Source of the DNA: Agromyces aurantiacus
GTDB taxonomy: Bacteria > Actinomycetota > Actinomycetes > Actinomycetales > Microbacteriaceae
NCBI RefSeq assembly: GCF_016907355.1
Contig: NZ_JAFBBW010000001.1
Span: 2,666,001-2,730,000 of the forward strand
Length of the DNA stretch: 64,000 nucleotides
Reading direction: 5' to 3'
Position numbers and translations under genes: made by a program. Positions within the stretch are counted from its first letter, which is position 1. Every line of letters begins with the position of its first letter. Shown piece by piece: positions 34,584-64,000 of the stretch. The notes beneath the pieces were generated by a model that did no database searches, was not told the DNA's origin, and saw nothing but the letters and a program-made list of their open reading frames with translations.

Positions 34584-34587
<4 letters not shown>
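33214..34587 (-). CDS. DUF58 domain protein (first copy)
   Basis: A 457-residue protein with two N-terminal TM helices (about 22-60), a beta-rich middle and the DUF58 signature LRRVHWAATARRGELMVREEE near 225-245. DUF58 proteins are usually paired with MoxR ATPases, as here, and may act like von Willebrand A-type client proteins. The ATG at 34587 overlaps the moxR stop (ATGA); a second ATG at 34578 is possible. Specific function unknown. Confidence 0.88.
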
Positions 34588-35599
<1,012 letters not shown>

Positions 35600-35603
<4 letters not shown>

Positions 35604-36091: not shown

Positions 36092-36142
36092 ACGAGCCAG
36101 CGTAGTGGGCGATCGCGGCTGCGGAGCCGCCGCTGGAGAGTC

Positions 36143-48040: not shown

Positions 48041-48787
48041 TCAGGATCCGGTGCCCGGCACCAGGTCGACGAGGAAGGCCACGTCGCCGAGGAGGAGGAC
48101 GGCGTCGAGCGGGACCGGCGTCGGTGCGCCCGGGCGCAACTCGATCGCGTCGCCGCCCTCGGGCCAGATGCGCACGCCGTTGGTCGAGCGCAGGTCGGTG
48201 ACGAGCAGGCGGTCGCCCTCGACCTCGAGCAGCGCGTGGGTCTTCGACATCGACCGGGCCGGGTCGGGCACGGCGACGGGCGTGCCACCGCCGTGCACCG
48301 CACTGGGGAGGGGATCGCGTCCGACGACCGCGCGCGAGCGCACCGTGAACTCGACGCCGTCGGCGGTCCGCAACCGCCACGCACGGGCGGAGTCGGCGGA
48401 CGGCGGAACCGGGCCGGACGGGTCCGGACCGGCGATCCGCGCCGGCGCGAACGCGGGTGGCCGCGCGCCGGCGCCGGAGACCGGCGCGACCGGGGCGACC
48501 GGAGGGAACGAGGGAGCGGGTGCGGCCGCGCTGCGCTCGGCCGGAGGCGGCTCGTCCGGGGGCGCCGCCGGCGGCGCGGGCGGCCCGGGCGGCAACGGCA
48601 GCGCCGACGGCACGGCCGATGGGGGCGGCGCGATCCGATCGACCGCGGGCGGCACCGAGCCGACCGGGCGGAAGGCGGGCAGCCGCCGGCTCGCCCGCAC
48701 CGTGCCGTCGGGCGTCTCGCCCGCCTCGGGCTCGGGCTCGTCGGGGACGAGCCCCGGCGGGGGCACGATGAAGTCGGGCTCGCTCAC
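48041..48787 (-). CDS. FHA-domain protein (envelope locus)
   Basis: A 248-residue protein: a Pro/Ala-rich disordered N-terminal half, then a phosphothreonine-binding FHA domain (about 145-245) with the core residues in VVGRDPLPS, the SMSKTHALLE motif and the RSTNGVRI turn. It should read threonine phosphorylation, plausibly by the kinase encoded at 59633-61336. Nine nt downstream of the second transglutaminase-like gene, it ends that operon. Confidence 0.88.
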   Translation of the reverse strand: MSEPDFIVPPPGLVPDEPEPEAGETPDGTVRASRRLPAFRPVGSVPPAVDRIAPPPSAVPSALPLPPGPPAPPAAPPDEPPPAERSAAAPAPSFPPVAPVAPVSGAGARPPAFAPARIAGPDPSGPVPPSADSARAWRLRTADGVEFTVRSRAVVGRDPLPSAVHGGGTPVAVPDPARSMSKTHALLEVEGDRLLVTDLRSTNGVRIWPEGGDAIELRPGAPTPVPLDAVLLLGDVAFLVDLVPGTGS

Positions 48788-48796
48788 GCCCCCACC

Positions 48797-51100
48797 TTAA
48801 CCGTCGCGTCGCCGCCGCCGCAGCCGGTACCGCGACACGAGGCGCCGCAGTCGGCCGCCGGCCGCCGACACCGCCGCGGCCGCGGCATCCGCCTCGGACC
48901 ACCGGCGCTCGATCGAGGTCGGGGCGACGTCGCCGCCGCCGAACACATCGCGATCGACCGTCGCCGCGAGCGTCACGAGCCGCACGCCGTCCTCACCGGT
49001 GCGCACGCCCGCGAGCCCCTGCTCGTCGAGCTGACGCTCGAGGGTGCGCGCGGTCTGCAGGCGTGAGGCGCGCTCGGGCGGCTCGAAGCCGAGCTCGGCG
49101 AAGCGGTCGACCAGCTCCTCCCAGGCTCCGGCCGCCTGCCGGTCGCCGGCACCGCGGCGACGGATGGCGCGACGCCGTCGCTTCGCGAGCGCGACGACGA
49201 GCATCGGCAGCAGCAGGATCGCGGCCGGGATGCCCACGCCGGCGATGATCGCCCACGCCCACGCCGGCAGCTGGAACGGGCGATCGCGGTCCTGGTCGTC
49301 GGTGTCGTCGATCTCGACGGTGGTGAGCAGCTCGTCCTCCGCCTGCTCGGCGCGCGGCGGCTGCCGCACCTGCGGCTGCGGCTCCGACTTCGGCTTCGGG
49401 GTCTGCTCCTGTGGCACGTCGACGTTGTCGGGCGTGGGCCGGAAGGCGACCCATCCGACGCCCTCGAACGGCACCTCGACCCACGCCGTGACATCGGAGC
49501 CGAGCACCTCGACCTCGTCGGCGCCCTCGGCGACCTCGGGGGCATAGCCCATGACGACGCGGGACGGATAGCCGAGGTGCCGGGCCATCAGCGCCATGGC
49601 CGCGGCGTACTGCTCGGCGTCTCCGACCATCTGCGTGCGCGTGAACAGCTCGATGAGCCGGTCGGCGCCGTGCCCGGCGCGTGAGGGCACCGCGTCGCTC
49701 GCGAGGCCGTGACTGAGGAACCCGTTCGTCTTCAGCGCCCGCTCGATCGCGCGCAGCTGCTCGATCGGGCTGGCGGCCTCGCCCGCGTACTCGTCGGCCT
49801 TCGCCGCGACCACGTCGGGCAGGTTCTCGACGATCGGCAGCGGCAGCTGGGCCACAGGCACGTCGGCGAGCGCCTGGTCGTCGGGCTCGCGCTGGGTCCG
49901 CGACTCGAGGCGGTACCGCGTGCCCTCGGCCGCGCCGCTCGTGAGCACCGCGGTGCCGGCGGCCGCGTTGTAGCGCACGTCGCCGGCGCGCTCCGCGGAG
50001 CCCGCGTCGAGCAGCTCGAGGCGCGAGCCGTAGCCGACGGTCGGCAGCCACACGTCGTCGTAGGCGAGCATGTCGACCTCGATCGAACGCGCGCTGCCGA
50101 GGTCGGCGAGCTCGGGTTCGGGCAGGGTCGTGCCGACGATCGCGTAGCCGCCGTCCTCGGCGGCCTGCTCCGGACCGGCGACGTTCCACAGTCGCCCGGT
50201 GTACGAGTCCATCGCGGCGAGCCGCACGGTGTCGCCCGGCTCGAGCCCCGATACCGTGAACAACGGCTCCTCGGCGAGGTCCTTCGTGTACTGCCGGAAC
50301 CCCGCGAGCGGGCTCGGGAACTCGAGCGGATCGAACGGCGGCACGACCTCGTCGCGGAGCACGAACCGGTCGGGCGCGATGGGGGCGACCGCGAGGCCCG
50401 CGACGGCGCCGATCGCGACCGCGCCGGCCACGACGGTCGCCGAGCCCGTGAGCCTGCGGCGTCGCAGGCGCGCCGCGCCGTCCCCCGCCGTCTCGACCTG
50501 CGCGCCGCGGCGCCACGCGATCCAGGACAGGGCGATCGCGGCGAAGGCCACGCCGCGCACGGCCGCGAGGAATGCCTCGTCGGTGCCGAGCAGGATGCCC
50601 GAGAGGAAGAGCAGCACTGGGCCGATGAGCAGCACGGCCGCGCGCAGCGGTGTACGCCGCACGGCCAGCCAACGCAGCACGAGCCGTCCGCCCACGAGCG
50701 AGACGACGCTCGCCGCCGCGTACGGCACGGCGCCCACGTACGCCGGCGCCTCGACCGGTGCCGAGATCGTCAGGATGTCGGCCCAGCCGTGCACGGCGCC
50801 GATGGCGAGCCCGGCGAGCGACGTGAGGCTCGGCAGGACCCCGAAGAGCGCCGCCTCGGGCATGACGAACGGCGTACCGACGACGAAGTACAGCGCGATG
50901 CCGAGCAGGACCGTGACGAGCACGCCCAGCCGCCACAGCGTGCCGAGCACGGCGGCGAGCGTGCCGACGGCGAGCCCCGCGATCGCGGCGAGCAGGAAGT
51001 CGAACCCGCCGAAGCTCGTCTCGTAGCCCGCGATCGCGAGCAGCGACAGCAGTGAGAGCACGCCGAGGTCGGCCACGGCGGCACGGGGGATCCGCGTCAC
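48797..51100 (-). CDS. transglutaminase-fold membrane protein lacking catalytic residues
   Basis: A 767-residue TgpA-like protein: about six N-terminal TM helices, a large extracytoplasmic region, a TM near 615-640 and a cytoplasmic tail. The transglutaminase fold is recognisable (YAAAMALMARHLGYPSRVVMGY and TAWVEVPFEGVGWVAFRPTP). By alignment with the intact copy at 30873-33224, the catalytic Cys is Ala (in VGDAEQY near 494), the His is Thr (DVTAW near 538) and the acidic residue is Arg. It is probably a non-enzymatic scaffold or binding protein. GTG at 51100, overlapping the DUF58 stop by 4 nt. Confidence 0.88.
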   Translation of the reverse strand: MTRIPRAAVADLGVLSLLSLLAIAGYETSFGGFDFLLAAIAGLAVGTLAAVLGTLWRLGVLVTVLLGIALYFVVGTPFVMPEAALFGVLPSLTSLAGLAIGAVHGWADILTISAPVEAPAYVGAVPYAAASVVSLVGGRLVLRWLAVRRTPLRAAVLLIGPVLLFLSGILLGTDEAFLAAVRGVAFAAIALSWIAWRRGAQVETAGDGAARLRRRRLTGSATVVAGAVAIGAVAGLAVAPIAPDRFVLRDEVVPPFDPLEFPSPLAGFRQYTKDLAEEPLFTVSGLEPGDTVRLAAMDSYTGRLWNVAGPEQAAEDGGYAIVGTTLPEPELADLGSARSIEVDMLAYDDVWLPTVGYGSRLELLDAGSAERAGDVRYNAAAGTAVLTSGAAEGTRYRLESRTQREPDDQALADVPVAQLPLPIVENLPDVVAAKADEYAGEAASPIEQLRAIERALKTNGFLSHGLASDAVPSRAGHGADRLIELFTRTQMVGDAEQYAAAMALMARHLGYPSRVVMGYAPEVAEGADEVEVLGSDVTAWVEVPFEGVGWVAFRPTPDNVDVPQEQTPKPKSEPQPQVRQPPRAEQAEDELLTTVEIDDTDDQDRDRPFQLPAWAWAIIAGVGIPAAILLLPMLVVALAKRRRRAIRRRGAGDRQAAGAWEELVDRFAELGFEPPERASRLQTARTLERQLDEQGLAGVRTGEDGVRLVTLAATVDRDVFGGGDVAPTSIERRWSEADAAAAAVSAAGGRLRRLVSRYRLRRRRRDG

Positions 51101-52440
51101 GGGCGCACCCTCCTCACGAGTCTGGGCAGCTCGTCGAGCGAGCCGACCGTGACGACGGTCGACTCCCCCACCCGGGTGATGCGCGACGCCGCTCCGAGCT
51201 CGGCCCGGAACACGATGACCTGCGTGTCGGAACCGAACACCGTCTCGACGGCGCGGAACTCGGCCAGCGGCGCACGCGAGCCGCCGACGACGATGAGCAC
51301 GCTCGGCACGGGCACCCGCTTGGCCGCCTCGCGCACGAGGTCGCGCACCGGCGCGGCGCCCTGCGCGAGCGACTCGATGCGGCTCGTGTCGTCGAGCAGC
51401 GCGGTGGGCGTCGCGGTGTTCAGCCGCAGCCGGTCGGTCGCGGTGGCGAGCCGCGTGGCGTCGCGGATGACCTGCACGCCGATCGACGCGAGCACCGACA
51501 CCGCGAGCTCGAACTCGTCGTCGGACGCGTAGTGCGCCGCGCTCGTGGCCTGCACGAGCAGCAGCTGCGAGCGGCGCGTCTCCTCGTACTGCCGCACCAT
51601 CAACTGCCCGGTGCGCGCCGACGTGCGCCAGTGCACGTTGCGCAGCGCGTCGCCCGGCTCGTACGCGCGGAGCGCGTGGAAGGAGATGTCGTTGTTCGTG
51701 ATGGTCTTCGTGACCTCGCCCTCGAGGTCGCGCACGAGGCCCGCCGCCGAGGGACGCAGCCGCGCCGTCACGGGGTGCACGAACAGCTCCACGGGCTCGG
51801 TCCAGCGCACCTCGCGGCGCAGCAGCCCGAGCTGGTCGCCGCGCACGGATGCCGCAGGCCCGGCGACGATCACGGCGCGCCGCTGCGTCGGCACCGCGAA
51901 GAGCTCCTCGTGCTCGCCGCCCGCGGGGATCGACGGGATCACGAACTCGGCGAGCCCCCGGCCGACCGGGAGCTCCAGCTGCGACGGCACGGATGCCGCG
52001 TCGGCGACGTTGTGCACGACGAGCCGGCCGAGCGCCCGCTCGCCCGCCACGACGCGGCGCGGCTGCAGCTCGATCTCGACGCGGTACCGCATACGCCCGA
52101 ACACGAACGGGACGGCGACGAGCAGCGCGGCGAGCAGGGTCGCCCCGACGAAGGCGAGCTCGATCCAGCCGAGGCCCCACGCCAGCGCGAGCGCCACGGC
52201 CGAGCCGGCGAGCACGAGCCATCCGACCGGCGAGATCACTCCCGTCACCGGCGCGGTGAACGCGGCCACGGCCGCACCCGCCCGGCGCAGGCGTGCGCCA
52301 CCCGAGCCGGCGGATGCCGCGATCGAGCGTCGCACGGAGCGCAGCGCGAGGCGCGCCTGCGACGGCGCCGCCGCGGGCGACGGGGTGGGCGGTCGGCTCG
52401 CCGGGGCGGGCGCGCCGGGCGCCTCGGTCTCGAGCGTCAT
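51097..52440 (-). CDS. DUF58 domain protein (second copy)
   Basis: A 447-residue protein with two TM helices (about 68-110) and the DUF58 signature DALRNVHWRTSARTGQLMVR near 265-285. The Pro/Ala-rich N-terminus of about 60 residues is probably cytoplasmic. It overlaps moxR and the transglutaminase-like gene by 4 nt each, so all three are translationally coupled. Likely the partner of the adjacent MoxR ATPase; substrate unknown. Confidence 0.9.
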   Translation of the reverse strand: MTLETEAPGAPAPASRPPTPSPAAAPSQARLALRSVRRSIAASAGSGGARLRRAGAAVAAFTAPVTGVISPVGWLVLAGSAVALALAWGLGWIELAFVGATLLAALLVAVPFVFGRMRYRVEIELQPRRVVAGERALGRLVVHNVADAASVPSQLELPVGRGLAEFVIPSIPAGGEHEELFAVPTQRRAVIVAGPAASVRGDQLGLLRREVRWTEPVELFVHPVTARLRPSAAGLVRDLEGEVTKTITNNDISFHALRAYEPGDALRNVHWRTSARTGQLMVRQYEETRRSQLLLVQATSAAHYASDDEFELAVSVLASIGVQVIRDATRLATATDRLRLNTATPTALLDDTSRIESLAQGAAPVRDLVREAAKRVPVPSVLIVVGGSRAPLAEFRAVETVFGSDTQVIVFRAELGAASRITRVGESTVVTVGSLDELPRLVRRVRP

Positions 52441-53405
52441 GCCGCCCGGTACGCCGGCGGCGCGATCTCGACGAGGACCTTGCCGACGATCTCCTCGGCG
52501 GTCACCCCCGCGAACTCCGACTCGGGGTCGACGATGATGCGGTGCGCGAGCACCGGCACCGCGAGCTCGCGCACGTCGTCGGGCGTGACGTAGGTGCGGC
52601 CGCGCGAGATCGCCCAGGTCTTCGCGGCGCGCGCGAGGGCGAGCGCGCCGCGCATGCTGACCCCGAGCGCCGAGTCGCGGTGGTCGCGCGTCGCGGAGAC
52701 GATCTGGTTGAGGTACGAGAGCACCGCGGCATCCACGTGCACCTCGGCGGCGAGCCGCGCCATGGTCGTCACCGAGCTCGAGGCGATGATCGGCGAGACC
52801 TTCGAGGCGCGCGCCCGGTTCGCCGAGTCGAGCAGCAGCGTGACGGCCGTGTCGTGGTCGGGGTAGCCGAGCGAGGTCTTCACGAGGAACCGGTCGAGCT
52901 GCGCCTCGGGCAGCGAGTAGGTGCCGGCCTGCTCGACCGGGTTCTGCGTCGCGATGACCATGAACGGGCTGCCGACCTCGTAGCTCACGCCGTCGACCGT
53001 GACGCGGCCCTCCTCCATGACCTCGAGCAGCGCCGACTGGGTCTTCGGGCTCGCGCGGTTGATCTCGTCGGCGAGCACGATCGAGGCGAAGATCGGCCCG
53101 CGGTGGAACTCGAACTGGCCCTTGCCCTGGTCGTAGATCGTCACGCCCGTGACATCCGAGGGCAGCAGGTCGGGGGTGAACTGGATTCGCGAGTGCGTGC
53201 CGTCGAGCGTGTTCGCCAGGGCCTTCGCGAGCACCGTCTTGCCCGTGCCGGGGAAGTCCTCGAGCAGCACGTGCCCCTCGGAGAGCATCGCGGTCACGAC
53301 GAGCTCGATGATCTCGCGCTTGCCGAGGATCGCGCGGTCGACGTTGTCGACGAGCTTCGAGAAGGCGTCCTGGAACCAGAGGGCCTGGTCTTGCGTCACG
53401 GTCAT
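52437..53405 (-). CDS. MoxR-family AAA+ ATPase (second copy)
   Basis: A 322-residue ATPase: Walker A DFPGTGKTVLAKALAN near 57, Walker B ADEINRASPKTQSALLEVMEE, sensor 1 ATQNPVEQAGTYSLPEAQLD and the lid helix. It follows the giant surface-protein gene by 49 nt and precedes DUF58. The tight coupling to DUF58 suggests a dedicated remodelling pair for this envelope locus, distinct from the first pair at 33-35.6 kb. Confidence 0.93.
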   Translation of the reverse strand: MTVTQDQALWFQDAFSKLVDNVDRAILGKREIIELVVTAMLSEGHVLLEDFPGTGKTVLAKALANTLDGTHSRIQFTPDLLPSDVTGVTIYDQGKGQFEFHRGPIFASIVLADEINRASPKTQSALLEVMEEGRVTVDGVSYEVGSPFMVIATQNPVEQAGTYSLPEAQLDRFLVKTSLGYPDHDTAVTLLLDSANRARASKVSPIIASSSVTTMARLAAEVHVDAAVLSYLNQIVSATRDHRDSALGVSMRGALALARAAKTWAISRGRTYVTPDDVRELAVPVLAHRIIVDPESEFAGVTAEEIVGKVLVEIAPPAYRAA

Positions 53406-53454
53406 GCTCGGGTCTTCTTCCTTCTGTATCTGGTCGTCTCGAGGCGGGGTCGGC

Positions 53455-56400
53455 TCACCAGTTGTTGCTCCGGATGCCGTCGATGACCACCCACGCGTCG
53501 GGGTTGCCGCACCACGAGTCGGGGAACTTCCCGGAGTAGCTGCCGGTGCCGTTGCGCACGTCGATGCGGATGTTCGTCGAGAGTCGCGTGCCGCTGCAGT
53601 AGGCGTAGCCCGAGGCGACGCCGTCGGGGAAGCCGCTCACGGTGACGTCGTAGTGCCAGCAGGTGCCGTTGCAGTAGCCGTACGGCCCGTTGTAGTAGCC
53701 GAGCGTGTCGCCCTTCTTGAGGGTGACCACCTTCGGCGGGTTGCTGACGCCGACCGAGTCGGAGGCGAAGTCGCCCGTGCCGCCGCCGTTCTTGTTCACG
53801 GCGCGGACGTCGACCCGGTGCGTCCCCGCGCCGACGCTGCCGAACGACGTCGACGTGCCGCTCACGGCCTTCCACCCGCCGCTGTCGATGCGCGCCTCGT
53901 AGGTCACGCCGCCGCCGCCCGTGTCGGACGGCGCGTTCCACGTCACGTCGATGCGCGTCGGCGCGTATCCCGCCGCGGTGGCCTTCACGTCGCGCGGCGC
54001 GCTCGGCACGCCGTAGGGAGTGCGCGAGGCCGACGGGCTCGACCACTCGCCCCAGCCGATGGCGTTCTGCGCGCGGACCTGGAAGTCGTAGGCGGTGCCG
54101 TTCGTCAGCGGCGCGAACCGCTGGTTCGTGCCGGCGCCGTCGGCCGCGAACGAGGCGGTCTGCCCGTTGTACTCGACCTGGTACCCGGTGATCGGCGAGT
54201 TGTTGTTCGCGGGCGCGGCCCATCGGATGGTGATGGCGCTGTCGCCGGACGAGACGATCTCGGGAGCTGCGGGCTTGTCGGGCTCGTCGCGTACGACGAC
54301 GGTGATGCGTCCCTGCGTCTCGCGGGCCGGGTCTTTCGTGCCGTCCTGGATGCGGTAGACCACGCTGAGCGTGCCCGTGAACGCGGCACCCGTCCGAACC
54401 GTGACGTCGGACTCGGTGTGGCTCGCCGTGGCCTCGGCGCCGACGCTCTGCTGGTCGATCTGCGCGTCGACCACGCGGAGCGGGGCGTCGGGCGCGAACG
54501 GGTTGAAGTCGTTCGCGAGCACGTCGAAGGTCTGGACGTCGCCGCGCTGCATCTCGTACGGCCCGTCGTCGTTGGCCTGCGGCAGCGCGCGCGTCGACGA
54601 GACGACCTTCACGTCGACGTACCCGGGAACGGTGAACTCGTTGAAGACGACGTCGAACGCGATGCGCACCTGCGTGCCCGGCTGCACGCCCAGCGGTGCG
54701 GACACCCGCAGCACCGAGCCCTCCACGATCTCGGCGCGCACGTCGGCCGTGGCGCCGCTGAGGTTGCGGTACTCGACGCGCTGGATGTTGTCGGGGTTCG
54801 GCTGGTCGGTCGAGGAGCGCAGGTCGACCTCGAGCGGTGCCTCGCCCGCCTCGATCGTCTCGCTCCGCGGCGTGAACGTCGGCGGCACGTCGTTGAAGTT
54901 CGGATCGCCCACGGTGATGGGGATCGTCAGGATCGCGGTGCGGCCGACGGGATCGTCGGCGCTCTTCCCGTCGGTGACCTCGAACGTGACGGATGCCGCG
55001 CCGCGGTAGTCGGTCGCGGGCACGAACTGGAGTGCCGTGCCGCTGACGAACGGCGCCTCCCCGGAGTTCGTGGCGGTTGCCGAGAGGATGAGGGCGGGGT
55101 TGCCGGACGGCACCACGACGAGGTCGTCGACGTTCCAGCTGATCCGGCCGTTCATGGGCACGATGACCTCGCCGAGGTCCTTCAGGTACGGCGCCGGGAA
55201 CTTCGCCTTCTCCTCGGCGAGCAGCTCCTCGGGCGTCTTCGGACGCTGGGTCTCCTCGACCGTGTCGTCGCCGGATGGCACGGCGGGCACGATCACGAAC
55301 GCCATCGCCGAGAGGTCGTCGAGTTCGTTGGTGAGCCGGTAGGCGACGGCATAGCGCTCGCGCCCCGGCGTGACCGTGATGGTGCCGTCGGAGGCGACCT
55401 CGGCCCGGCCGGCGTTCGGCCCCTCGACGGTGACCGCGAGATCCTCCACGAGCCCGCCGGGGTTCGTCGCGTCGGCGAGCGGATCGACCGTGACGGGCGC
55501 GCCGTCGACGACCTGCTCGGGCTCGATCACCTGGTCCTCGGCGGTCGGCGGGTCGATGACCGCATCCTCGGTCACCGCGACCTGCAGGAAGGCGGTGTCG
55601 GCGCCGCCGTGGCCGTTCGAGATCTCGTATCGGATCGTGTACGCGGCTTCCTGCTGGGGCGCCGTGACGACCACGCGCCGGCGATCGCGGATCTCGGCGT
55701 CGATGCCGTCGTCGACCTCGGGGAGGTCGGCGACGTGCAGTCGGTACCCGCTCGGGTCGGAGTCGTTCAGCAGCACCTCGACCGACGCCGTGCGACCCGG
55801 CTTCATCTCGATCGCGTCGTCGACGGCCTTCGGCGGCAGCTGCACCTCGGGCCGCGGGATGACGCCGATGCGGATGGCGCCCTCGGCCGTCGCGCCGAAC
55901 GTGTCGCGCACCTCGTACGTGAGCTCGTCGGTCCCGGCCGAGCCGGCGAACGCCTCGTAGGTCAGCGACGTGCTCGTCCGCTCGATCACCCGGCCGAGTT
56001 CGGGCGCGACGGCGATGCCCGTGAGCGTGACGGAGTCGCCGTCGGGGTCGAGCTGGTCGAGCGGCACGTCGATCGTCACCGCGGAGCCCGCGAAGGTGCG
56101 CGAGGTGAGCGGGGTGGGCAGGGGCGCGCGGTTCTCCCCGGCGTCCTTCGCGACGACGGTGAAGCGGACGGCGGCGCGCGCCGTCTGCTCGAACTCGTCG
56201 CCGATCGTGTACACGGCGCTGTAGACGCCGGCCTTCTCGGGCGCCTGGAACCGCACGGCGTCGCCGTCGACGAACGCGAGGCCGTCGGGCGCGTCGACCT
56301 CGACGAGCTCGGGCTGCACGTGGAGCGTCGCGGCATCCGGGTGGTAGTCGTTCTCGAGCACCGGCACGGTCACGATGTCGCCCGCGCGCACGATCGCCCC

Positions 56401-58758
56401 GTCGTCGACCGCGACCGGAGGCTGGTGCTTGACGAGCGGCGGGACCGGCACGACGGTCACGGTCGCCGTGGAGGAGTTCACGCCGTCGGAGACGGTGTAG
56501 GCGACCTGCAGCTGCGTGTCGACGGCCTGCGACGCCGTGATGCGCAGCACCGTGTTGGTGAGGATCTCGACCGAGACGAGCCCCTCGGCGGCCGAATCGT
56601 CGATGGACTGCACCGCGAGCACCCGGCCCGAGGGCGAGACGTCGTTGGCGAGCACGGGCACGGTGAGCGGCTCGCCCGCGCGCAGGTACGCGGTGTCCTT
56701 GACCGCGATCGGCGGCGGCACCGCGGCGGGCGGCTCGACGACCTGCACGCGGATGAGTCCCTTGCTCACCGCGGCACCGGCGCCGAGGCCGTAGAGGAAC
56801 ACGTACTCCCCCGGCTCGTTGGCCGAGAACGACAGGGTGCCCCGCTCGACGTTGGGCGTGACGGCCGCGCCGTCGGGCACCTCCTCGACGCCGAGCAGCT
56901 CCAGGCCGGCGCCCGAGGGCGAGAGGTCGTTGGCGAGCGGCTCGATGAGCTCGGTCTCGCCCGCGAACACGCGCGCGTAGTCGGGCGTGCCGACCGGATT
57001 CAGCGACCCGGTCGGCTTCACCTCGACGGTGAGGGTGCCCGCGGCGGTCGTGGCGCCGTCCGAGACCGTGAAGCGCACCTCCTTCGTGCCGAGCTCGGCC
57101 GAGCGGTGCTCGAAGGTCACGTACCCGTCGGGGCTGGAGCGCACCACGTCACCGCCCGCCGGGGACGCGTCGACGAGGTAGAGGTCGTCGCCGTCGGGGT
57201 CGTTCCAGTCGGCGAGCACGTTGTACGAGATCTGCTGGCCCTGCTCGACGCTGATCGCGCCGCTGCGGATCGACGTGGGCGCGGTGTTCTCGCTCTCCGG
57301 CACGATCCGCACGTTCACCGACGCCTCGGCGACCCCGCCGCGGCCGTCGTCGACGCCGTAGCGGAAGGAGACGCTGCCCGCGGCCCCGTCGGCGGGCGAG
57401 AACTGCAGGGCGCGGCCGCCGTCGATGAGCTCCAGCCGGCCGGCCGATGCCGAGACCTCGGAGGTCGACGCGATCGTGAGCACGTCGCCGTCGGGGTCGG
57501 TGTCGTTCTCGAGTACCTCGAGCACGGTGGTGCGCCCCGGCCGGACGCCGTACTCGTCGTCGCGGGCCACGGGAGGCCGGTTCACGTCGGTGCGCTCGGC
57601 CAGGGTGTCCTCGAACGTCTGCTGCGCCGACTTCTCCTCGCCCTCGAGGTCCTCGCTCTCCTCGGGCGGCGTGACCTCCTCCCAGTTGTCCACGAGTCGG
57701 AGGTCGGAGTCGACGAGCCACGAGTTGCCGTTGGTGAGGTCGTTGAGCACGATGACGTCGCGGTTGACCCGGAACTCCAGTCGCGAGCCGGCCGTCGGCT
57801 GGTCGATGGCGGTCGATTCGGGGTCGCGCCCGTCGCATGCGGCGACGTACCGGCCGCCGGCCGCCCACGCCCCGTGGATGCACGAGCCCAGCCGCACCGG
57901 CGCCGCGACCTCGTCGGCCTTCGTCGCGGCGACCTCCGCCCCGTTCGGGATGGTGCGGATGCCGCCGCCGCCGAGCGGCACGTCGAGCAGGCCGGTCGCG
58001 GTGGCCAGCACGACGGCATCGCGCTCGGGGCCGGACTGCTGGAGCCTCAACGCCGGTTCGGGCAGGGGGATCTCGCGGTCGTCGACGAGCACCGCGTCGC
58101 CTTCGACGTCGAGCACGACGGGTCGCTCACCGACGGCGGCGAGCTGGTGGCGGCCGAGCTTGCGCAGCTCGCGTCGATCCGGCTCGGTCGCGTCGCGACG
58201 CAGCGAGAGCAGCTCGCGGTCGCCGGGCGCCGTCGCGAAGACGGTGCCCTCGGCGCTCACGGCGACCTCGGCGCCGTCGCCGAGGTCGGCGACCGGGTCG
58301 GTCCCGCGGAAGTCGAACGCGAGCTCGGCCCCCGCGGGCACGCGCCACAGCTCGCCTTCGGGAGAGAGCACCGCGAGCACGTCACCGCCGTACGCGACGG
58401 AGGAGGCGGGCGGGACGTCGATGCGCTGCACGAGCGTGGTGAAGGACGGGTCGATCCGCTCGATCGAGCCGACCCCCGGGTCGTAGAGGAACGCGTCCTC
58501 GCCGTCCTGGAAGACGTCGATCTCGTTCGTGGCCGTGGCGACGGCCGCGTCGAGCTCCTCGATCTGGCGGTTGAGCCGTCCCGCGAGCAGGTCCTCGGCG
58601 TTGGTGACCCACACCTCGCGCGCGCGCAGGTCGGGGTCGGTCACAGGGAAGCCCTGGTGCAGCACGGCGATGCCGACGGGCACGCCGGCGAGCACCGCGA
58701 TGGCGGTCGCCGACGCCACGTTGCGGCGCGAGCGCAGCCAAGACCTCAACGTGACCAA
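53455..58758 (-). CDS. giant membrane-anchored Ig-like/Fn3 repeat protein
   Basis: A 1767-residue protein. A single N-terminal TM (about 17-35) has a short basic cytoplasmic end. Residues about 40-390 look like a beta-propeller, followed by about 11 Ig/cadherin-like modules spaced near 90 residues, many with a V-x-V/P-L-x-N-D-x-x-P-x-G motif (for example VLENDTDPDGD, VLANDVSPSG, VLLNDSDPSG). Two Fn3 domains follow, then an 80-residue C-terminal module with four Cys (YGYCNGTC, YAYCSG, SWCGNP). There is no sortase motif. TTG start with GGGGGAG 6 nt upstream. Probably a long extracellular stalk; adhesive or wall-organising roles are inference. Confidence 0.9.
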   Translation of the reverse strand: MVTLRSWLRSRRNVASATAIAVLAGVPVGIAVLHQGFPVTDPDLRAREVWVTNAEDLLAGRLNRQIEELDAAVATATNEIDVFQDGEDAFLYDPGVGSIERIDPSFTTLVQRIDVPPASSVAYGGDVLAVLSPEGELWRVPAGAELAFDFRGTDPVADLGDGAEVAVSAEGTVFATAPGDRELLSLRRDATEPDRRELRKLGRHQLAAVGERPVVLDVEGDAVLVDDREIPLPEPALRLQQSGPERDAVVLATATGLLDVPLGGGGIRTIPNGAEVAATKADEVAAPVRLGSCIHGAWAAGGRYVAACDGRDPESTAIDQPTAGSRLEFRVNRDVIVLNDLTNGNSWLVDSDLRLVDNWEEVTPPEESEDLEGEEKSAQQTFEDTLAERTDVNRPPVARDDEYGVRPGRTTVLEVLENDTDPDGDVLTIASTSEVSASAGRLELIDGGRALQFSPADGAAGSVSFRYGVDDGRGGVAEASVNVRIVPESENTAPTSIRSGAISVEQGQQISYNVLADWNDPDGDDLYLVDASPAGGDVVRSSPDGYVTFEHRSAELGTKEVRFTVSDGATTAAGTLTVEVKPTGSLNPVGTPDYARVFAGETELIEPLANDLSPSGAGLELLGVEEVPDGAAVTPNVERGTLSFSANEPGEYVFLYGLGAGAAVSKGLIRVQVVEPPAAVPPPIAVKDTAYLRAGEPLTVPVLANDVSPSGRVLAVQSIDDSAAEGLVSVEILTNTVLRITASQAVDTQLQVAYTVSDGVNSSTATVTVVPVPPLVKHQPPVAVDDGAIVRAGDIVTVPVLENDYHPDAATLHVQPELVEVDAPDGLAFVDGDAVRFQAPEKAGVYSAVYTIGDEFEQTARAAVRFTVVAKDAGENRAPLPTPLTSRTFAGSAVTIDVPLDQLDPDGDSVTLTGIAVAPELGRVIERTSTSLTYEAFAGSAGTDELTYEVRDTFGATAEGAIRIGVIPRPEVQLPPKAVDDAIEMKPGRTASVEVLLNDSDPSGYRLHVADLPEVDDGIDAEIRDRRRVVVTAPQQEAAYTIRYEISNGHGGADTAFLQVAVTEDAVIDPPTAEDQVIEPEQVVDGAPVTVDPLADATNPGGLVEDLAVTVEGPNAGRAEVASDGTITVTPGRERYAVAYRLTNELDDLSAMAFVIVPAVPSGDDTVEETQRPKTPEELLAEEKAKFPAPYLKDLGEVIVPMNGRISWNVDDLVVVPSGNPALILSATATNSGEAPFVSGTALQFVPATDYRGAASVTFEVTDGKSADDPVGRTAILTIPITVGDPNFNDVPPTFTPRSETIEAGEAPLEVDLRSSTDQPNPDNIQRVEYRNLSGATADVRAEIVEGSVLRVSAPLGVQPGTQVRIAFDVVFNEFTVPGYVDVKVVSSTRALPQANDDGPYEMQRGDVQTFDVLANDFNPFAPDAPLRVVDAQIDQQSVGAEATASHTESDVTVRTGAAFTGTLSVVYRIQDGTKDPARETQGRITVVVRDEPDKPAAPEIVSSGDSAITIRWAAPANNNSPITGYQVEYNGQTASFAADGAGTNQRFAPLTNGTAYDFQVRAQNAIGWGEWSSPSASRTPYGVPSAPRDVKATAAGYAPTRIDVTWNAPSDTGGGGVTYEARIDSGGWKAVSGTSTSFGSVGAGTHRVDVRAVNKNGGGTGDFASDSVGVSNPPKVVTLKKGDTLGYYNGPYGYCNGTCWHYDVTVSGFPDGVASGYAYCSGTRLSTNIRIDVRNGTGSYSGKFPDSWCGNPDAWVVIDGIRSNNW

Positions 58759-58830
58759 GCTCGTCTCCCCCGGGTGCCGTCCGTCGGTAGGGCGTCGGAT
58801 GGCGCCGCCGAGACCGGCGGGCCGGGCATC

Positions 58831-58859
58831 ACGCTAACACGGGGTCCGAGGCCCCCGAA
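58831..58859 (-). promoter_or_regulatory. predicted promoter of the surface-protein operon
   Basis: On the minus strand TTCGGG (58859-58854), 17 nt, TAGCGT (58836-58831), about 70 nt before the TTG start at 58758. The intergenic region between the two envelope operons is 164 bp. Confidence 0.45.
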
Positions 58860-58891
58860 ATGGGGAGTCCTGCCCATCCGAACGCATGAAA

Positions 58892-58917
58892 CGGATGCGC
58901 CCCTCCGGGGATGTCCG
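58892..58917 (-). terminator. weak hairpin after the kinase operon
   Basis: Just after the stop of the FHA-winged-helix gene (58923), the minus strand can form CCCC-GGA-GGGG extended by CGGA/TCCG across an internal loop, followed by TTT. A weak, possible terminator. Confidence 0.35.
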
Positions 58918-58922
58918 GGCGA

Positions 58923-59636
58923 TCACGAGGCGCCGTCGGCCGCCTCGTCGCGCGCGCCGTCGAGCAGCACGAGATCCTCCGCGCTCACCAGTCGCGTCGC
59001 GACCGCGTACTCGACGAGGCGGGCGCGGCGGTTCACCGCGAGCCGGCCCCGGCCACCCCGCAGGCCGTCGACCCCGATCTTGTCGAGCTTCTCGCACACG
59101 TTGTCGAGCTTGCGGTTGAAGGTCGTCATGCTCCAGCCCAGCCGCGCGGCCGCCTCGGCCGAGCTCGGCACCGTCGCGCGCCCGGCGGACGGCTGCGAGA
59201 GCACGTGCTCGGCGAGCGCGACCACCAGCAGGCGCTGGCTCGTGGTGAGCGTGACCGGCAGGATCGTCGTGCCGCCGTCGGCCGGCGAGGCCGTGAGGGA
59301 GGTGTTGTAGAAGTCCTCCTCGGCGTGCACGGTGAAGTCGTACGTGGTCGCGCCCGCGCTGAACATCACGTGCACGGACTTGAACACCAGCGGCAGCTTC
59401 GCGCCCGGCGCCACCCACGACTGCACGCTGCCCGTGGCATCCGACACCGTCGCCGACAGCAGCTGCCCGACGTTCGAGAGCCACCACAGCCCGAACTCGC
59501 TGGAGAGCGTGAGGAAGGTCCGGTGCAGGTACGGGTTGTCGTCGATCGTGAGGTCGGACTCGCGGCCGATGGTGAACGTGCGGCCGGCCTCGACCGTGTA
59601 CCACTCGCCGCAGTACTCCACGCGCAGGGGCCTCAT
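58923..59636 (-). CDS. FHA-like domain fused to a winged-helix DNA-binding domain
   Basis: A 237-residue protein. Residues 1-95 look like an FHA domain (FTIGRESDLTIDDN, YLHRTFLTLS). After a linker, about 130-225 form a helical DNA-binding region (LTTSQRLLVVALAEHVL, SSAEAAARLGWSMTTFNRKL, RARLVEYAVATRLVS). The ATG at 59636 overlaps the kinase stop (ATGA); a GTG at 59645 is less likely. It is a plausible phospho-dependent transcription factor fed by the neighbouring kinase. The FHA match is weaker than in the two other FHA proteins. Confidence 0.82.
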   Translation of the reverse strand: MRPLRVEYCGEWYTVEAGRTFTIGRESDLTIDDNPYLHRTFLTLSSEFGLWWLSNVGQLLSATVSDATGSVQSWVAPGAKLPLVFKSVHVMFSAGATTYDFTVHAEEDFYNTSLTASPADGGTTILPVTLTTSQRLLVVALAEHVLSQPSAGRATVPSSAEAAARLGWSMTTFNRKLDNVCEKLDKIGVDGLRGGRGRLAVNRRARLVEYAVATRLVSAEDLVLLDGARDEAADGAS

Positions 59637-61336
59637 CCGCTGCACCCCCGCACCGGCTCGGAGGTCTTGCTGCCGCGCTGCACCTGCACCTCGATGCAGA
59701 CCGTCGCACCGTCGGCGACGCCCTGCACCACGATCTCGGACCCGGTCGCGACGGCGGTCGTGCCGACGCCGTCGACCCGCCGCCAGCGGTAGCGGTCGCC
59801 GTCCTCGGTGGGCTCGTGCGATACCGGGAACACCACGTCGCCGCCGCTCGTGCGCTCGCCGTCGCCGACCTCGGGGGCGGGCACGCGTGCCGCGATGATC
59901 GCATCCTCGGCGGAGGGCTCCGGGGTGCTCGGATCCTCGCCGCCGGCGCTCCCCGCGCCGCCGAGCGCGATGGCCGCGGCGACGGCGCCGACCACGACGA
60001 TGGACGCCGCCGCGACGATCGCGCCGGTCACGGCGCGACGGCGACGCGCGGGCCGATCTGCGGGTTCCGCTTCGCTCGACGGCCCGCTCGGGCGGGCCGC
60101 GCCGGAGACGGCCGGGCGGACGACGGTCCCGTCCTCGACGGCATCGCCGAGATCGCCCGCCATGGACGACGCGGATGACGCGGCCGCGCCGGGCTGCGCG
60201 CGCACCTCGCGGACGCTCCGCGCCCGGGTCGCATCCTCGTCGGGCGCAGCGGCGCGCAGGGGCGCGGACATGGGCGCCGGGCCGGGCGGCGGCTCGGCGT
60301 GCACCACCCGGACGGCTCGGGCTCGAGTCGCCGCGTCATCGTCCGGGGCGCCGGGCTCCGCCGCGGCATCCGGACCCGACTCGACCGCGCCGGGGTCGGC
60401 GGTCGGCAGGCTCGGCACCTCGATGCCCGTGACCGAGTACCCGAGCTCGAGCTCGATGCGCTGGAGCGCACGGCCGAACTCGACCGCGCTCTGGTAGCGA
60501 TCCTCGCGACGCACCGCCATGCCGGTCGCGAGGACCGCCTCGAGGCTCGCGGGCACGTCGTCGCGCCCGATCGGCGTGACGCGACCGCGCTCGATGCGGC
60601 CGATGAGGTCGAGCGGGCCGTTCGAGCGCCCGGGGATCTCGAAGGGCGTGCGGCCCGCCAGGAGCGTGTGCACCGTGGCGGCGAGCGCGAACACGTCACT
60701 GCGCGTGTCGGGCCGGGGATCGTCCTCGAACAGCTCGGGCGGGGACCACGGCACGCTCATGCCGACGGCCGCGCGGTCGGAGCCGGTGCGCGAACCCGTC
60801 GCGCCCGGATCGGCGGTGAACGACATCGTGTGCACCGGCAGCTCGCCCTCGAGATCGGACGAGATGCCGAAGTCGCTGAGCGCCGGCCAGCCGTAGTCGT
60901 TCGTGAGCACGTTCGCCGGCTTGATGTCGCGGTGCAGGATGCCGGCCGCATGCGCCGTGGCGACCGCACCCGACAGGCGGATGCCCGTACGCAGCGCATC
61001 CTCGACGCTCAGCGGCTGCCGCTTGTACCGTTCGGAGAGGCTCGGCCCGGAACAGTACTCCATGACGAAGTACGGCCGGCCGTCGGCCGAGACATCCGCG
61101 TGGAAGATCGTCACGATGAACGGATGGGCCGAGAGGCGCGCCATCAGGTTCGCCTCGGCGACGAACTGCGCGCGCGTGCCCGCGTCGATGTCGTCGGCGA
61201 GCAGCACCTTCACCGCGACCTTGCGCCGCGGCAGGCGCTGCTCGTAGAGGAACACGTCGGCGAACCCGCCGGAACCGAGCAGGCCGAGGTGCGTGTAGCC
61301 GGGCAGCTCGGGAGGCGAGGAGGGCGGACGGCGCAT
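59633..61336 (-). CDS. transmembrane Ser/Thr protein kinase (PknB-like)
   Basis: A 567-residue receptor-type Hanks kinase. The cytoplasmic domain has a Gly loop (LGSGGFADVF, 20-29), K43, E61, HRD at 135-137, N142, DFG at 155-157 and a long activation segment rich in Ser and Thr. A Pro/Ala linker follows, a TM near 425-447 and a 110-residue extracytoplasmic domain with two Cys near the C-terminus. No PASTA repeats are present, so its ligand is not muropeptide by that route. All catalytic residues are intact. Flanked by PP2C, FHA and FHA-DNA-binding genes with 1-4 nt overlaps. Confidence 0.94.
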   Translation of the reverse strand: MRRPPSSPPELPGYTHLGLLGSGGFADVFLYEQRLPRRKVAVKVLLADDIDAGTRAQFVAEANLMARLSAHPFIVTIFHADVSADGRPYFVMEYCSGPSLSERYKRQPLSVEDALRTGIRLSGAVATAHAAGILHRDIKPANVLTNDYGWPALSDFGISSDLEGELPVHTMSFTADPGATGSRTGSDRAAVGMSVPWSPPELFEDDPRPDTRSDVFALAATVHTLLAGRTPFEIPGRSNGPLDLIGRIERGRVTPIGRDDVPASLEAVLATGMAVRREDRYQSAVEFGRALQRIELELGYSVTGIEVPSLPTADPGAVESGPDAAAEPGAPDDDAATRARAVRVVHAEPPPGPAPMSAPLRAAAPDEDATRARSVREVRAQPGAAASSASSMAGDLGDAVEDGTVVRPAVSGAARPSGPSSEAEPADRPARRRRAVTGAIVAAASIVVVGAVAAAIALGGAGSAGGEDPSTPEPSAEDAIIAARVPAPEVGDGERTSGGDVVFPVSHEPTEDGDRYRWRRVDGVGTTAVATGSEIVVQGVADGATVCIEVQVQRGSKTSEPVRGCSG

Positions 61337-62580
61337 CAGCGCGTCACCACCTGGATCGTCCAGCCGCCGCCGAGGTCGATCACCGTCTCGGGCAGCACGG
61401 GCGTGGGCTCGGCGGGACGCAGGCGCACGGGCGGCAGGCCCGGCGCGACGACGTGCGTGCCGTTGCGCGACTCGAGGTCGGTCACCACGGCGGTCCCGCC
61501 CTCGACGACGACGCGCAGGTGGGTGCGCGAGATGTCGGGGTCGCCCGCGCCGATCACGACCGTGCGCGGGACGCGAGCCCCGACGACGCGGCCGATCGCG
61601 GGCGCGCGCCCGAGGACGAGCTCGCCGACGATCGGCTCGATCGAGCCGTCGGGCAGGCGCAGCGCGAGCGACGGCGTCGCGGCGCCCGGCGCCGCGGCAC
61701 CCGGCCGCACCCCGGCGCGCTCCGTCTCGCGCTGCTCGCGCAGCCGGCGGATGTCGGCGCTCGCGACCGTGAGGCCGTCGTGGTCGCCGAGTGCGCTGCG
61801 CGGCGGCTCGGCCGACGGCACCGCGGGCGGCGCGGCCGAAGCATCCGCGGCGATGCCCGGCGGTGGGACGATGACGGTCGTGTCGACGGAAGGGTCGTCC
61901 CGGACGTCGGCGGCGGACGGAACCCGCTCGGCGCGCGGGGGGATCTGCGGCCGCTCGGTCCGCGAGAAGCCCACGACCGTGTCCTCCGGCACCATCGTGC
62001 GCTCGTCGGGGCGCTCGTGGGAGCGCTCGTCCACGGTCGCCGACGACGGCACCGGCACCGGGGCCGCGACGACCTGCGCACTCGACCCGTCGTCTCGGCG
62101 ATGGAGATCGACAGGCCTCGTCGCCTCGTCGCCCGCCCACTCGACCTCGGAGGCGAGGACCGCGCCGCCGATCAGCGGGAGCCGCACGGGATTCGCGGGT
62201 CGTGGCGCGCCGTCGTCACCGCGAATCGGTGCCGCCGCCGAGACGCGCACCGCGGGCGCCCCGCCGACGACGCGTTCCTGCCAGGTCGAGACCTGCTCGC
62301 CTGACACCTCGACGTCGCCGAGCCGCACGGTCAGCGCCCCGCGCACCACGGCGCGCGCGGTGCCCGACGCGCGTTCGCGCACGACGAGCGCGAAGCTCGG
62401 CACCGACGCCACGCCGCCGGCCGCCAGCCGGTCGATGACCTGCGTCGCGGCATCCGCGGCGCCGAGCCGCGGCCAGAGCGACGCGAGGTCGTCGGCGCGA
62501 TCGGCCGGGAGCATCAGCAGCGCGTCCTCGCGCAGCGCGATCACCCAGCGGCCGCCATCGTCAGGACGGTACTCCGCCAC
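61336..62580 (-). CDS. FHA-domain protein of the kinase operon
   Basis: A 414-residue protein. The N-terminal 170 residues form an uncharacterised beta-rich region (EYRPDDGGRWVIALREDALL), the middle is Pro-rich and disordered, and the C-terminal FHA domain (about 315-410) shows ELVLGRAPAIG, DISRTHLRVVVEG and LESRNGTHV. GTG at 62580 overlaps the PP2C stop by 20 bp; the stop shares one base with the kinase start. Probably a kinase substrate or adaptor. Confidence 0.88.
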   Translation of the reverse strand: MAEYRPDDGGRWVIALREDALLMLPADRADDLASLWPRLGAADAATQVIDRLAAGGVASVPSFALVVRERASGTARAVVRGALTVRLGDVEVSGEQVSTWQERVVGGAPAVRVSAAAPIRGDDGAPRPANPVRLPLIGGAVLASEVEWAGDEATRPVDLHRRDDGSSAQVVAAPVPVPSSATVDERSHERPDERTMVPEDTVVGFSRTERPQIPPRAERVPSAADVRDDPSVDTTVIVPPPGIAADASAAPPAVPSAEPPRSALGDHDGLTVASADIRRLREQRETERAGVRPGAAAPGAATPSLALRLPDGSIEPIVGELVLGRAPAIGRVVGARVPRTVVIGAGDPDISRTHLRVVVEGGTAVVTDLESRNGTHVVAPGLPPVRLRPAEPTPVLPETVIDLGGGWTIQVVTR

Positions 62581-63454
62581 CCTCGTCCCCCGTCTCCCTC
62601 GGCGTGGTCTGCTCGAGCCCCTCGGGGAGCGCCGCATCGCGATCGCGCGTCGCCCCGTCGTCGTCGGCGTCGCCGCCGAGGTCGGATTCGACGACCACCG
62701 CCGTCACGTTGTCGCGCGCCCCCGCCGCGAGTGCCGCATCGACGAGTTCGCCCGCGAGCCCGGCCGCGTGCATCGAGTGCCCGGTGAGGATCTGGGCGAG
62801 CTGCTCGTCGTCGAGCTCCTTCGACAGCCCGTCGGAGCAGATCAGGAACACCTGGCGACCGCCCGCCGGGATGAGCCACACGTCGGGCTCGACGACGTCG
62901 TCGGCGCCGATCGCGCGCGTGATGACATTGCGGTCGGGATGGCGCTCGGCGTCATCGCTGCTGATCACGCCCGCGTCCACGAGTTCCTGCACGGCGGAGT
63001 GGTCGACCGTGACCTGCTGCAGGCGCCGGCCATCCCATGCGTACACGCGCGAGTCGCCGACGTTGAAGACCATCCAGTGCACGCCGCGACCCTCGCCGGC
63101 GTCGACGAGCACGACCCCCGCCACGGTCGTGCCGGCCACCGCGGTGCCCTCGTCGCCGTCGTCGGACAGCGAGCGGACCACCTCGTTGGAACTGTGGATC
63201 GCGTCGAGCACCTGCTCGGGCGTCGACGGGCGGCCGTGGTCGAGGTGGCGCGTGAAGGTGTCGACGACGGCGCGGCTCGCGGCATCCCCTCGGGCGTGCC
63301 CGCCCATCCCGTCGGCGACGACGTACACGGGCGCGTGAGCGAGCAGTGCATCCTCGTTCACCGTCCGGACGTTGCCGACATGCGTACGGGCGCTGTGGGC
63401 GATGCGGGCCGAGCCGCTCGGAATGGGGACGACACCGCTGCCATCAGACGTCAC
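62561..63454 (-). CDS. PP2C-type Ser/Thr protein phosphatase
   Basis: Metal-dependent phosphatase opposing the downstream kinase. The 297 residues show the PPM motifs: RTHVGNVRTVNEDALL, the metal site VVADGMGGHARGD, LICSDGLSKELDD and the C-terminal GARDNVTAVVVES. Soluble, with no TM. First gene of the operon PP2C-FHA-kinase-FHA/wHTH. Confidence 0.94.
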   Translation of the reverse strand: MTSDGSGVVPIPSGSARIAHSARTHVGNVRTVNEDALLAHAPVYVVADGMGGHARGDAASRAVVDTFTRHLDHGRPSTPEQVLDAIHSSNEVVRSLSDDGDEGTAVAGTTVAGVVLVDAGEGRGVHWMVFNVGDSRVYAWDGRRLQQVTVDHSAVQELVDAGVISSDDAERHPDRNVITRAIGADDVVEPDVWLIPAGGRQVFLICSDGLSKELDDEQLAQILTGHSMHAAGLAGELVDAALAAGARDNVTAVVVESDLGGDADDDGATRDRDAALPEGLEQTTPRETGDEGGGVPS

Positions 63455-63563: not shown

Positions 63564-64000
63564 TCAGCGCTGCGGCGAGGCCTCGTCCTCCGCGCGCTCG
63601 GCTCGGTCGCCCTCGTCGGTGAAGTGCGGGATCTCCTCCGCGAGCGTGTGGCCACGCCGGCGCGCATCGAGGTTCGCCTTGACGAGGCTCGCGACCGTGG
63701 CCACGGCCATCGCGCCGATGATGACGGCGAGGGAGGTCCACGTGGAGATGTCGGGCGCCCACTCGATGTGCTCGCCGCCGTTGATGAACGGCAGCTCGTT
63801 CTCGTGCATCGCGTGCAGGACGAGCTTCACGCCGATGAAGGCGAGGATGAACGCGATGCCGTACTTGAGGTACTCCAGGCGCTCGAGCAGGCCGCCGAGC
63901 AGGAAGTACAGCTGGCGCAGGCCCATGAGCGCGAACACGTTCGCCGTGAACACGATGAACGGGCTCTGCGTGATGCCGAAGATCGCGGGGATCGAGTCGA
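63564..64000 (-). CDS. TerC-family membrane protein, C-terminal part
   Basis: Only the C-terminal 145 residues are inside the window; the frame is open to the right edge. The sequence includes the hallmark [19 protein letters not shown], then [34 protein letters not shown] and a last TM near [19 protein letters not shown], with a 35-residue acidic cytoplasmic tail. TerC/Alx proteins are 7-9 TM carriers linked to manganese export and to metal loading of exported proteins. Well recognised, but partial. Confidence 0.92.

Follow-up and report, generated by a model that had tools for sequence, protein, structure and literature searches.

The stretch analysed here (the window) comprises 64,000 nucleotides, positions 2666001-2730000 of the 3.88-Mb single-contig genome of Agromyces aurantiacus. 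It carries nine genes, all on the minus strand (48041-63454), that encode a PP2C-type phosphatase, an FHA protein (FHA1), a receptor-type Ser/Thr kinase, an FHA-like protein with a helix-turn-helix (HTH) half (FHAH), a giant stalk, a MoxR ATPase, a DUF58 protein, a transglutaminase-fold (TGL) membrane protein and a further FHA protein (FHA3). An earlier note had described the genes in this order as two operons 164 bp apart with a stalk of 1767 aa, and both Pfam and the reading frames agree; the gap lies between FHAH and the stalk gene. We consider the module to be probably the envelope part of a subtype of type VII secretion system (T7SS) of Actinomycetota that we have not found described, of which the PFNA operon of Bifidobacterium would be a branch without a nearby secretion ATPase. 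The features of the locus are as follows.

62561..63454, minus strand: PP2C-type Ser/Thr phosphatase (PF13672, E 7.9e-13; NF033484, 203.9 bits, under the cut-off of 230)
61336..62577, minus strand, start codon approximate, open reading frame open to 62637: FHA1, with a C-terminal FHA domain (PF00498, E 4.6e-7)
59633..61390, minus strand, start approximate: receptor-type Ser/Thr kinase with one transmembrane helix and a short extracellular domain (PF00069, E 7e-32)
58923..59645, minus strand: FHAH, with an FHA-like N-terminal half and an HTH C-terminal half, candidate regulator (relatives, alignment, co-occurrence with the operator)
58860..58877, no strand: operator palindrome, consensus ATGGGGA-N4-TCCCCAT (no other window site at ≤2 mismatches)
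58831..58839, minus strand: extended -10 element TGTTAGCGT, 20 nt from the palindrome
53455..58758, minus strand: giant stalk, 1767 aa (transmembrane anchor, beta-propeller, Big_9/cadherin-like Ig repeats, two fn3, C-terminal domain)
57589..58755, minus strand: N-terminal diagnostic module of the stalk, transmembrane helix and beta-propeller (18-relative profile, AlphaFold2, Foldseek)
52437..53405, minus strand: MoxR AAA+ ATPase, AAA_3 (PF07726, E 1.3e-62; clade in the MoxR tree)
51097..52440, minus strand: DUF58 protein, vWA-like, without DxSxS (PF01882, E 5.6e-12)
48797..51091, minus strand, start approximate: TgpA-like TGL membrane protein, predicted catalytically dead (PF01841, Transglut_core, E 3.2e-15; catalytic columns)
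48041..48787, minus strand: FHA3 (PF00498, E 4.1e-5)
63564..63998, minus strand: end of a TerC-family gene (PF03741, E 1.3e-19)

For the first operon, the earlier note had counted two FHA proteins, one of them DNA-binding. Pfam bears this out for FHA1; FHAH has no Pfam FHA match and an HTH match below threshold only, and its description as 'FHA + HTH' is drawn from its sequence and from the names of relatives ('FHA domain-containing', P0037; 'HTH crp-type', P0038; 3869 relatives at E ≤ 0.001, the best 120 listed). It is the sole DNA-binding candidate in the cluster. The kinase motifs are retained in most copies (HRD-type in 99/117, DFG in 116/117), the MoxR Walker A motif is canonical in 133/134, and Walker A and B are both present in the window genome or in most copies. 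The phosphothreonine pockets of FHA1, FHA3 and the FHA domain of the EssC-type ATPase described below are presumably intact, as the residues that we take to form them are in place by eye. Two candidate features were set aside. The DxSxS signature of the MIDAS is missing from 129/129 linked DUF58 sequences but also from the window's free DUF58, so its loss is uninformative. A threonine docking motif common to the kinase and the FHA proteins was given no weight because part of it falls in folded FHA beta-strands; counts against shuffles were 53 vs 14.1 for FHA1, 38 vs 16.5 for the kinase, 28 vs 8.3 for FHA3 and 42 vs 16.8 for DUF58, with no excess in PP2C, MoxR, TGL or FHAH.

Stalk architecture and conservation of the gene set

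The stalk begins with a transmembrane helix followed by a domain without a Pfam match (residues 1-390). A profile of 18 relatives of this N-terminal module, compared with the PDB, matched designed Pizza propellers (best E 3.9e-11) and, over one profile stretch only, the PknD sensor propeller (1rwi; E 5.6e-6). AlphaFold2 modelled the module as a helix and a mostly-strand domain (mean pLDDT 84.2), and the top Foldseek matches were beta-propellers (1l0q, virginiamycin B lyase, BamB) at TM-scores of only ~0.4-0.6, so the number of blades is not fixed. The C-terminal piece holds two fn3 stretches, one at residues 1496-1577 by Pfam and a second after it, together with the C-terminal domain. The protein is anchored at its N-terminus, and its C-terminal end is hydrophilic, with no hydrophobic run visible by eye.

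Searches with the N-terminal module profile covered draws of 393 genomes of the class and 296 of the phylum. The module was found in 66 of the former at E ≤ 1e-5 (44 at E ≤ 1e-40, by hand count) and in 13 of the latter at E ≤ 1e-10, four of these in other classes; besides those classes, the family occurs in Agromyces, Cryobacterium, Glaciibacter, Rathayibacter and Arthrobacter sp. StoSoilB13. Loci for the linkage counts were chosen by hand from the profile matches, with the window included and with L022, L023 and L040 excluded, as their stretches hold no stalk module. Among 76 loci from Actinomycetes other than Bifidobacteriaceae, MoxR was present in 73, DUF58 in 71, TGL in 68 and all three in 67, accompanied by the kinase in 56, PP2C in 55 and any FHA protein in 66. 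The nine loci short of the full core are a solitary stalk (L026), a locus in which only the called MoxR is absent (L048), one at a contig end (L053) and six tandem-stalk stretches that end too early (L038, L042, L061, L062, L087, L091). In Bifidobacteriaceae, 59 of 60 loci have all three genes and all 60 the kinase, 13 of these loci being the same contig fetched twice; in other classes the three genes lie beside the stalk in 4/4 loci, and they were found in two of three weak or short stalk loci.

The gene set is thus linked across the phylum, far from chance. The earlier note had joined the phospho-relay genes and the stalk-MoxR-DUF58-TGL genes in one system and had proposed neighbourhood conservation across Actinobacteria as its check; the 67 of 76 loci with MoxR, DUF58 and TGL mark one conserved unit, and the two operons stay linked in other genomes. 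In a MoxR tree, 36 chosen stalk-linked MoxRs formed one clade against 13 free ones (support 99/94); the program flagged long branches for L030 and within the free set. Several paralogous locus types exist, and the window genome itself has type A (the window locus) and type B near 1.88 Mb.

Unusual stalks were seen at several loci. Stalk genes are duplicated in tandem in L038, L042, L061, L062, L087, L091 and L024/L025, and in L024/L025 the entire stalk-MoxR-DUF58-TGL unit is duplicated. In L067 (6938-8242) the 'stalk' is an open frame of just 435 aa, hardly longer than the N-terminal module, in a locus otherwise complete, with EssC and four WXG100-like frames; it is perhaps a stalk without Ig repeats, or a broken gene. 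Stalks of ~800 aa with a transmembrane helix and propeller lie beside MoxR-DUF58-TGL in L243 and L244, from large-genome families, with an fn3-like stretch in L243 and with Ser in place of Cys in the linked transglutaminase fold. We did not adopt these as full family members and left them out of the tree, the L243 MoxR being equally near to the free and the linked MoxR of the window (51.4% and 50.8%).

The dead transglutaminase fold and the Bifidobacterium PFNA operon

The window TGL reads GDAEQY, SDVTAW and FRPTP at the places expected for the catalytic Cys, His and Asp, which agrees with the earlier note's description of a dead transglutaminase fold. In an alignment of 124 linked sequences (some genomes twice), 22 were gapped in the nucleophile column and none of the remaining 102 has a Cys there; the residue is Asp, Glu, Ala or Gly outside bifidobacteria and Ser within them. 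His is retained in 20/94 and Asp in 34/93, and six more linked loci likewise lack the Cys. Of 30 Transglut_core control loci, taken from these genomes and relatives, 24 carry G-x-C with a downstream [HE]-[AV]-W, the other six being L201, which is itself stalk-linked, and five that the motif expression did not match. The window holds a control of its own, a second MoxR-DUF58-transglutaminase cluster (30873-36647, minus strand) that keeps the catalytic Cys and His and has no stalk link. This canonical cluster has the same three families in the same order as the cluster studied here, but it has no stalk and its MoxR falls outside the stalk-linked clade. As the nucleophile is lost in all readable linked sequences, the product of the PFNA gene 'tgm' very probably serves as a subunit for structure or binding and not as an enzyme.

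The PFNA operon consists of pkb2, fn3, aaa-atp (MoxR), duf58 and tgm, followed in some species by prpC, a hypothetical gene and fha; in B. longum GT15 the genes are co-transcribed and MoxR is phosphorylated by the kinase Pkb2 (PMC8430577). The earlier note knew of no characterised system with the set found in the window, a claim that falls to this operon. By BLASTP, the window stalk aligns with all six named Bifidobacterium stalks compared at 29.7-31.9% identity over 1607-1731 columns (best quoted score 590 bits, B. saguini), and against the same six species identities are 55-57% for MoxR, 33-34% for DUF58 and 35-42% for the kinase. The core order kinase-stalk-MoxR-DUF58-TGL is found in 38/40 named Bifidobacteriaceae loci; of the two exceptions, L172 ends after MoxR and L149 has its overlapping DUF58 and TGL frames swapped. 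The stalks are alike in length and in the position of the fn3 pair (near residues 1490-1670; near 1494-1671 in B. longum, PMC10688814). The window cluster differs from PFNA in its upstream PP2C and FHA genes, in FHAH, which separates kinase and stalk, in the operator and in a promoter of the stalk's own. Among the fetched bifidobacterial loci neither FHAH nor EssC was seen, nor any operator ahead of a gene of the cluster.

On sequence grounds, the window cluster is a homologue of PFNA and a member of its family. The authors of the PFNA studies describe the operon as confined to bifidobacteria, with no orthologues elsewhere (PMC10688814, PMC6803598), and a mycobacterial moxR operon has been said to resemble it (PMC12067865). 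The restriction to Bifidobacterium is wrong, because a homologous module with the same core order exists outside the genus. We infer that PFNA is a branch, or a use, of the module without a secretion ATPase nearby.

A shared operator and the link to type VII secretion

Between the FHAH and stalk genes lies the palindrome ATGGGCAGGACTCCCCAT (minus strand, 58860-58877). No other site in the window comes within two mismatches of ATGGGGA-N4-TCCCCAT, and the reversed consensus is not matched anywhere in the window at ≤3 mismatches. Over 145 loci, 49 sites were found at ≤2 mismatches, 33 upstream of the stalk, five upstream of PP2C and 11 elsewhere, and the reversed-consensus control over the same loci gave none. 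Of the 11, two fall at the 5' part of the PP2C frame or within it (L065, L066) and three beside WXG100-like frames (L041, two in L067). Where FHAH lies inside the stalk operon, the palindrome precedes PP2C in 7/10 loci. There was no operator at two tandem-array stalk starts (L087, L091) nor at either L038 stalk, and the 60 bifidobacterial loci yielded four weak sites, of which two come from a single contig that was fetched twice and none precedes a gene of the cluster.

The palindrome lies exactly 20 nt from an extended -10 element in 21/21 Agromyces stalk sites, the window included, and in 18/18 distinct sites at ≤1 mismatch; we take TGnTAnnnT to be the extended -10 consensus. As a general feature of the regulon this element was rejected, as TGnTAnnnT occurs within 36 nt in 0/29 regulon sites and 0/24 other sites. 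A plain TAnnnT lies 22-23 nt from the palindrome in 15 of the 29 hand-chosen sites and never nearer (shuffled mean 0.4, maximum 5).

FHAH is present in 36 of the 393 class genomes (E ≤ 1e-30). Sites at ≤1 mismatch number one or more in 29 of these and two or more in 27, against 66 and 10 of the 357 genomes without FHAH. By our own count the reversed control has at least one match in 48 of the 393 genomes and at least two in four, so single sites are near background. Within the window's family, sites occur in 16/17 genomes with FHAH and in 0/6 without it (Fisher p 7e-5). The pattern suggests that FHAH binds the operator. The largest number of sites at ≤1 mismatch in the sample, thirteen, was seen in G035, where the regulon is perhaps larger. 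At L276 (5994) an operator stands ahead of a MoxR-DUF58 pair, and the 12-kb stretch contains no stalk; the regulon may extend to this second MoxR machine.

The window's cluster contains neither an EssC/EccC ATPase nor a WXG100 protein. Elsewhere in the window genome, at 3.39 Mb, a one-mismatch operator site stands before an FHA-FtsK ATPase (L256). Among NCBIfam models this ATPase matches EssC best (TIGR03928, 505 bits, below the curated cut-off), followed by EccCa and EccCb, and a two-mismatch site precedes the WXG100 gene adjoining it. In 22 chosen loci with 29 sites, a WXG100-like gene lay within 400 nt at 12 sites (two pairs being identical copies), EssC at two, PP2C at one and MoxR at one. 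Of 10 small proteins compared with Pfam, seven scored above the WXG100 cut-off, two of them being identical in sequence, two scored below it and one had no match. The operator is shared by the stalk operon and by WXG100 and EssC genes. Following operator-preceded WXG100 genes, two frames are candidate substrates: L279 11557-12900, with PF21725 above cut-off, and L263 9561-10829, with weak WXG100_2 and EspA_EspE matches.

The linkage is physical as well. An EssC relative (E ≤ 1e-60) was matched in 40 of the 44 stalk genomes, which alone means nothing because EssC relatives occur in stalk-less genomes too. In 25 of the 40 genomes with both, EssC lies within 30 kb of the stalk on the same contig; random placement (2000 draws, a 3.8-Mb model genome without contigs) gave a mean of 1.5 and a maximum of 9. 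Contiguous gene orders include the type B locus of the window genome (1866000-1897000; FHA-PP2C-kinase-stalk-MoxR-DUF58-TGL-FHA-EssC), that of Arthrobacter sp. StoSoilB13 (operator-stalk-MoxR-DUF58-TGL-FHA-PP2C-FHA-kinase-FHAH-EssC in one direction, with TGL and EssC each over two frames), L055 (EssC-WXG-kinase-stalk-MoxR-DUF58-TGL-FHA-PP2C) and L067 (PP2C-FHA-kinase-FHAH-stalk-MoxR-DUF58-TGL-EssC and four WXG genes, with the kinase split over two frames). The link of the module to a T7SS, judged from operator and gene order, is well supported; the earlier note had missed both the EssC and WXG100 link and the shared operator.

Interpretation and rival explanations

The nearest secretion system is T7SSd of Actinomycetota (Garrett, Higginson and Palmer 2024, PMC11217815), whose large protein is of a different topology. 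Like the system described here, T7SSd combines an EssC-type ATPase with FHA, WXG100, a Ser/Thr kinase and an Ig-like envelope protein of very large size. That protein, TsdI, has a Sec signal peptide, Ig-like domains and a C-terminal transmembrane helix and was proposed to be a wall-spanning part of the exporter (PMC11217815), whereas the stalk is anchored by an N-terminal transmembrane helix, carries a propeller and ends hydrophilic; the main text of that paper contains none of the words MoxR, DUF58, transglutaminase and fibronectin. MoxR, a vWA-like protein and a beta-propeller also come together in ternary systems (Kaur et al. 2020, PMC7159879), and the window MoxR matches bpMoxR of Pfam at 43.7 bits. 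In those systems propeller and vWA protein are fused and a variant P-loop is frequent among the MoxRs (PMC7159879), whereas the window cluster carries its propeller on the stalk and its MoxR has a canonical P-loop. In the open-licence literature we found no paper that mentions both PFNA and 'type VII secretion' (the abbreviation 'T7SS' was not among the terms combined with PFNA), none on T7SS, WXG100 and Microbacteriaceae, none on type VII secretion with FHA domain, MoxR and WXG100, and 'type VII secretion' with DUF58 in two papers only, both on Mycobacterium. The gene set is accordingly that of a PFNA family member; the link to a T7SS, the operator and the loss of the nucleophile throughout the linked TGLs were not found described in that literature and are new.

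We propose, tentatively, a new actinobacterial T7SS subtype in which the membrane-anchored propeller-Ig-FN3 stalk would span the wall beside the EssC-type ATPase and form part of the export path. MoxR, DUF58 and the dead TGL membrane protein would remodel or assemble the stalk, while the kinase and PP2C would set the phosphorylation of threonines read by FHA1, FHA3 and the FHA domain of EssC; such reading would bring the parts together by docking the FHA proteins and EssC, and the machine would be gated by threonine phosphorylation that four FHA-type proteins read. FHAH, bound to the palindrome, would switch on the stalk operon together with the WXG100 and EssC genes as a single regulon, and PFNA would be the same machine after loss or separation of EssC. 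For the window's genome the best reading is that the secretion components are dispersed.

Several observations weigh against this proposal. The genomes are related, which flatters the Fisher p for the association of operator with FHAH and other such p-values here. Seven of the 36 FHAH-bearing genomes have no site at ≤1 mismatch (G156, G311, G037, G116, G147, G189, G254), ten of the 357 without FHAH have at least two (G094 and G103 have several sites), and no operator was found in 17 type B or C loci. FHAH and the operator track the same locus types, and the true partner could be another gene there. Thirteen of the 29 chosen sites lead to no recognised gene (11 only to genes of no identified family, two to no gene). 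The ATPase falls under every curated cut-off, with 505-522 bits against the 778 required for EssC and with sub-threshold scores for EccCa and EccCb. No EssC was matched in four of the 44 stalk genomes, and in 15 of the 40 genomes with both genes there is none within 30 kb of the stalk, nor is there any within 20 kb in Actinomyces oris. In the window genome the type A stalk is far from EssC (2.72 vs 3.39 Mb), and only the 1.88-Mb paralogue adjoins EssC. EssC was found in none of 59 Bifidobacteriaceae loci, and the EssC query at E ≤ 1e-60 had no match in four bifidobacterial genomes, a search that a more distant EssC would escape; Bifidobacterium is listed under T7SSd (PMC11217815).

The bifidobacterial loci, which retain the module without EssC, favour a stand-alone surface system of the PFNA kind, in which the kinase would govern MoxR-aided folding or display of a giant adhesin and a T7SS would merely be co-regulated and often a neighbour, as both act on the envelope. 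Stalk, MoxR, DUF58 and TGL are the constant core of the module, EssC lying inside 12 of the 83 fetched stretches, most of which are too short to reach it, and the PFNA papers report cytokine binding by an FN3 fragment and propose adhesion (PMC8430577, PMC10688814). We hold this alternative to be rather unlikely, given the proximity of EssC in 25/40 genomes, the contiguous gene orders with EssC and the operator common to WXG100 genes. These same observations would go unexplained if the cluster were an envelope-homeostasis relay without a secretion role, the model of the earlier note, in which the kinase senses the wall, FHA proteins dock on MoxR-DUF58 and the stalk is assembled or tensioned. 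Linked genes, kinase motifs retained in most copies and the phosphorylation of MoxR by Pkb2 in B. longum (PMC8430577) speak for such a relay, but it leaves both the operator on WXG100 and EssC genes and the EssC linkage aside, and we think it improbable.

Least probable by a wide measure is the host-immune-sensing operon proposed for PFNA, for which the binding of TNF-alpha by a B. longum FN3 fragment in vitro (PMC10688814) can be adduced. Since the family occurs in the five genera named above and in other classes, host cytokines are unlikely to be the ancestral cue, and immune sensing may be a local use in bifidobacteria. A secretion-linked module would join PFNA, called a bifidobacterial immune sensor, with the kinase- and FHA-bearing T7SS variants; it would give the MoxR-DUF58 partners a testable function, and it supplies a sequence-defined operator with a candidate regulator.

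Outside the cluster, the TerC-family gene is a constant upstream neighbour in the fetched Agromyces type A loci and is also found in L070, L074 and L077, from another family. The downstream frames, read by eye, are presumably leuC, leuD and murA.

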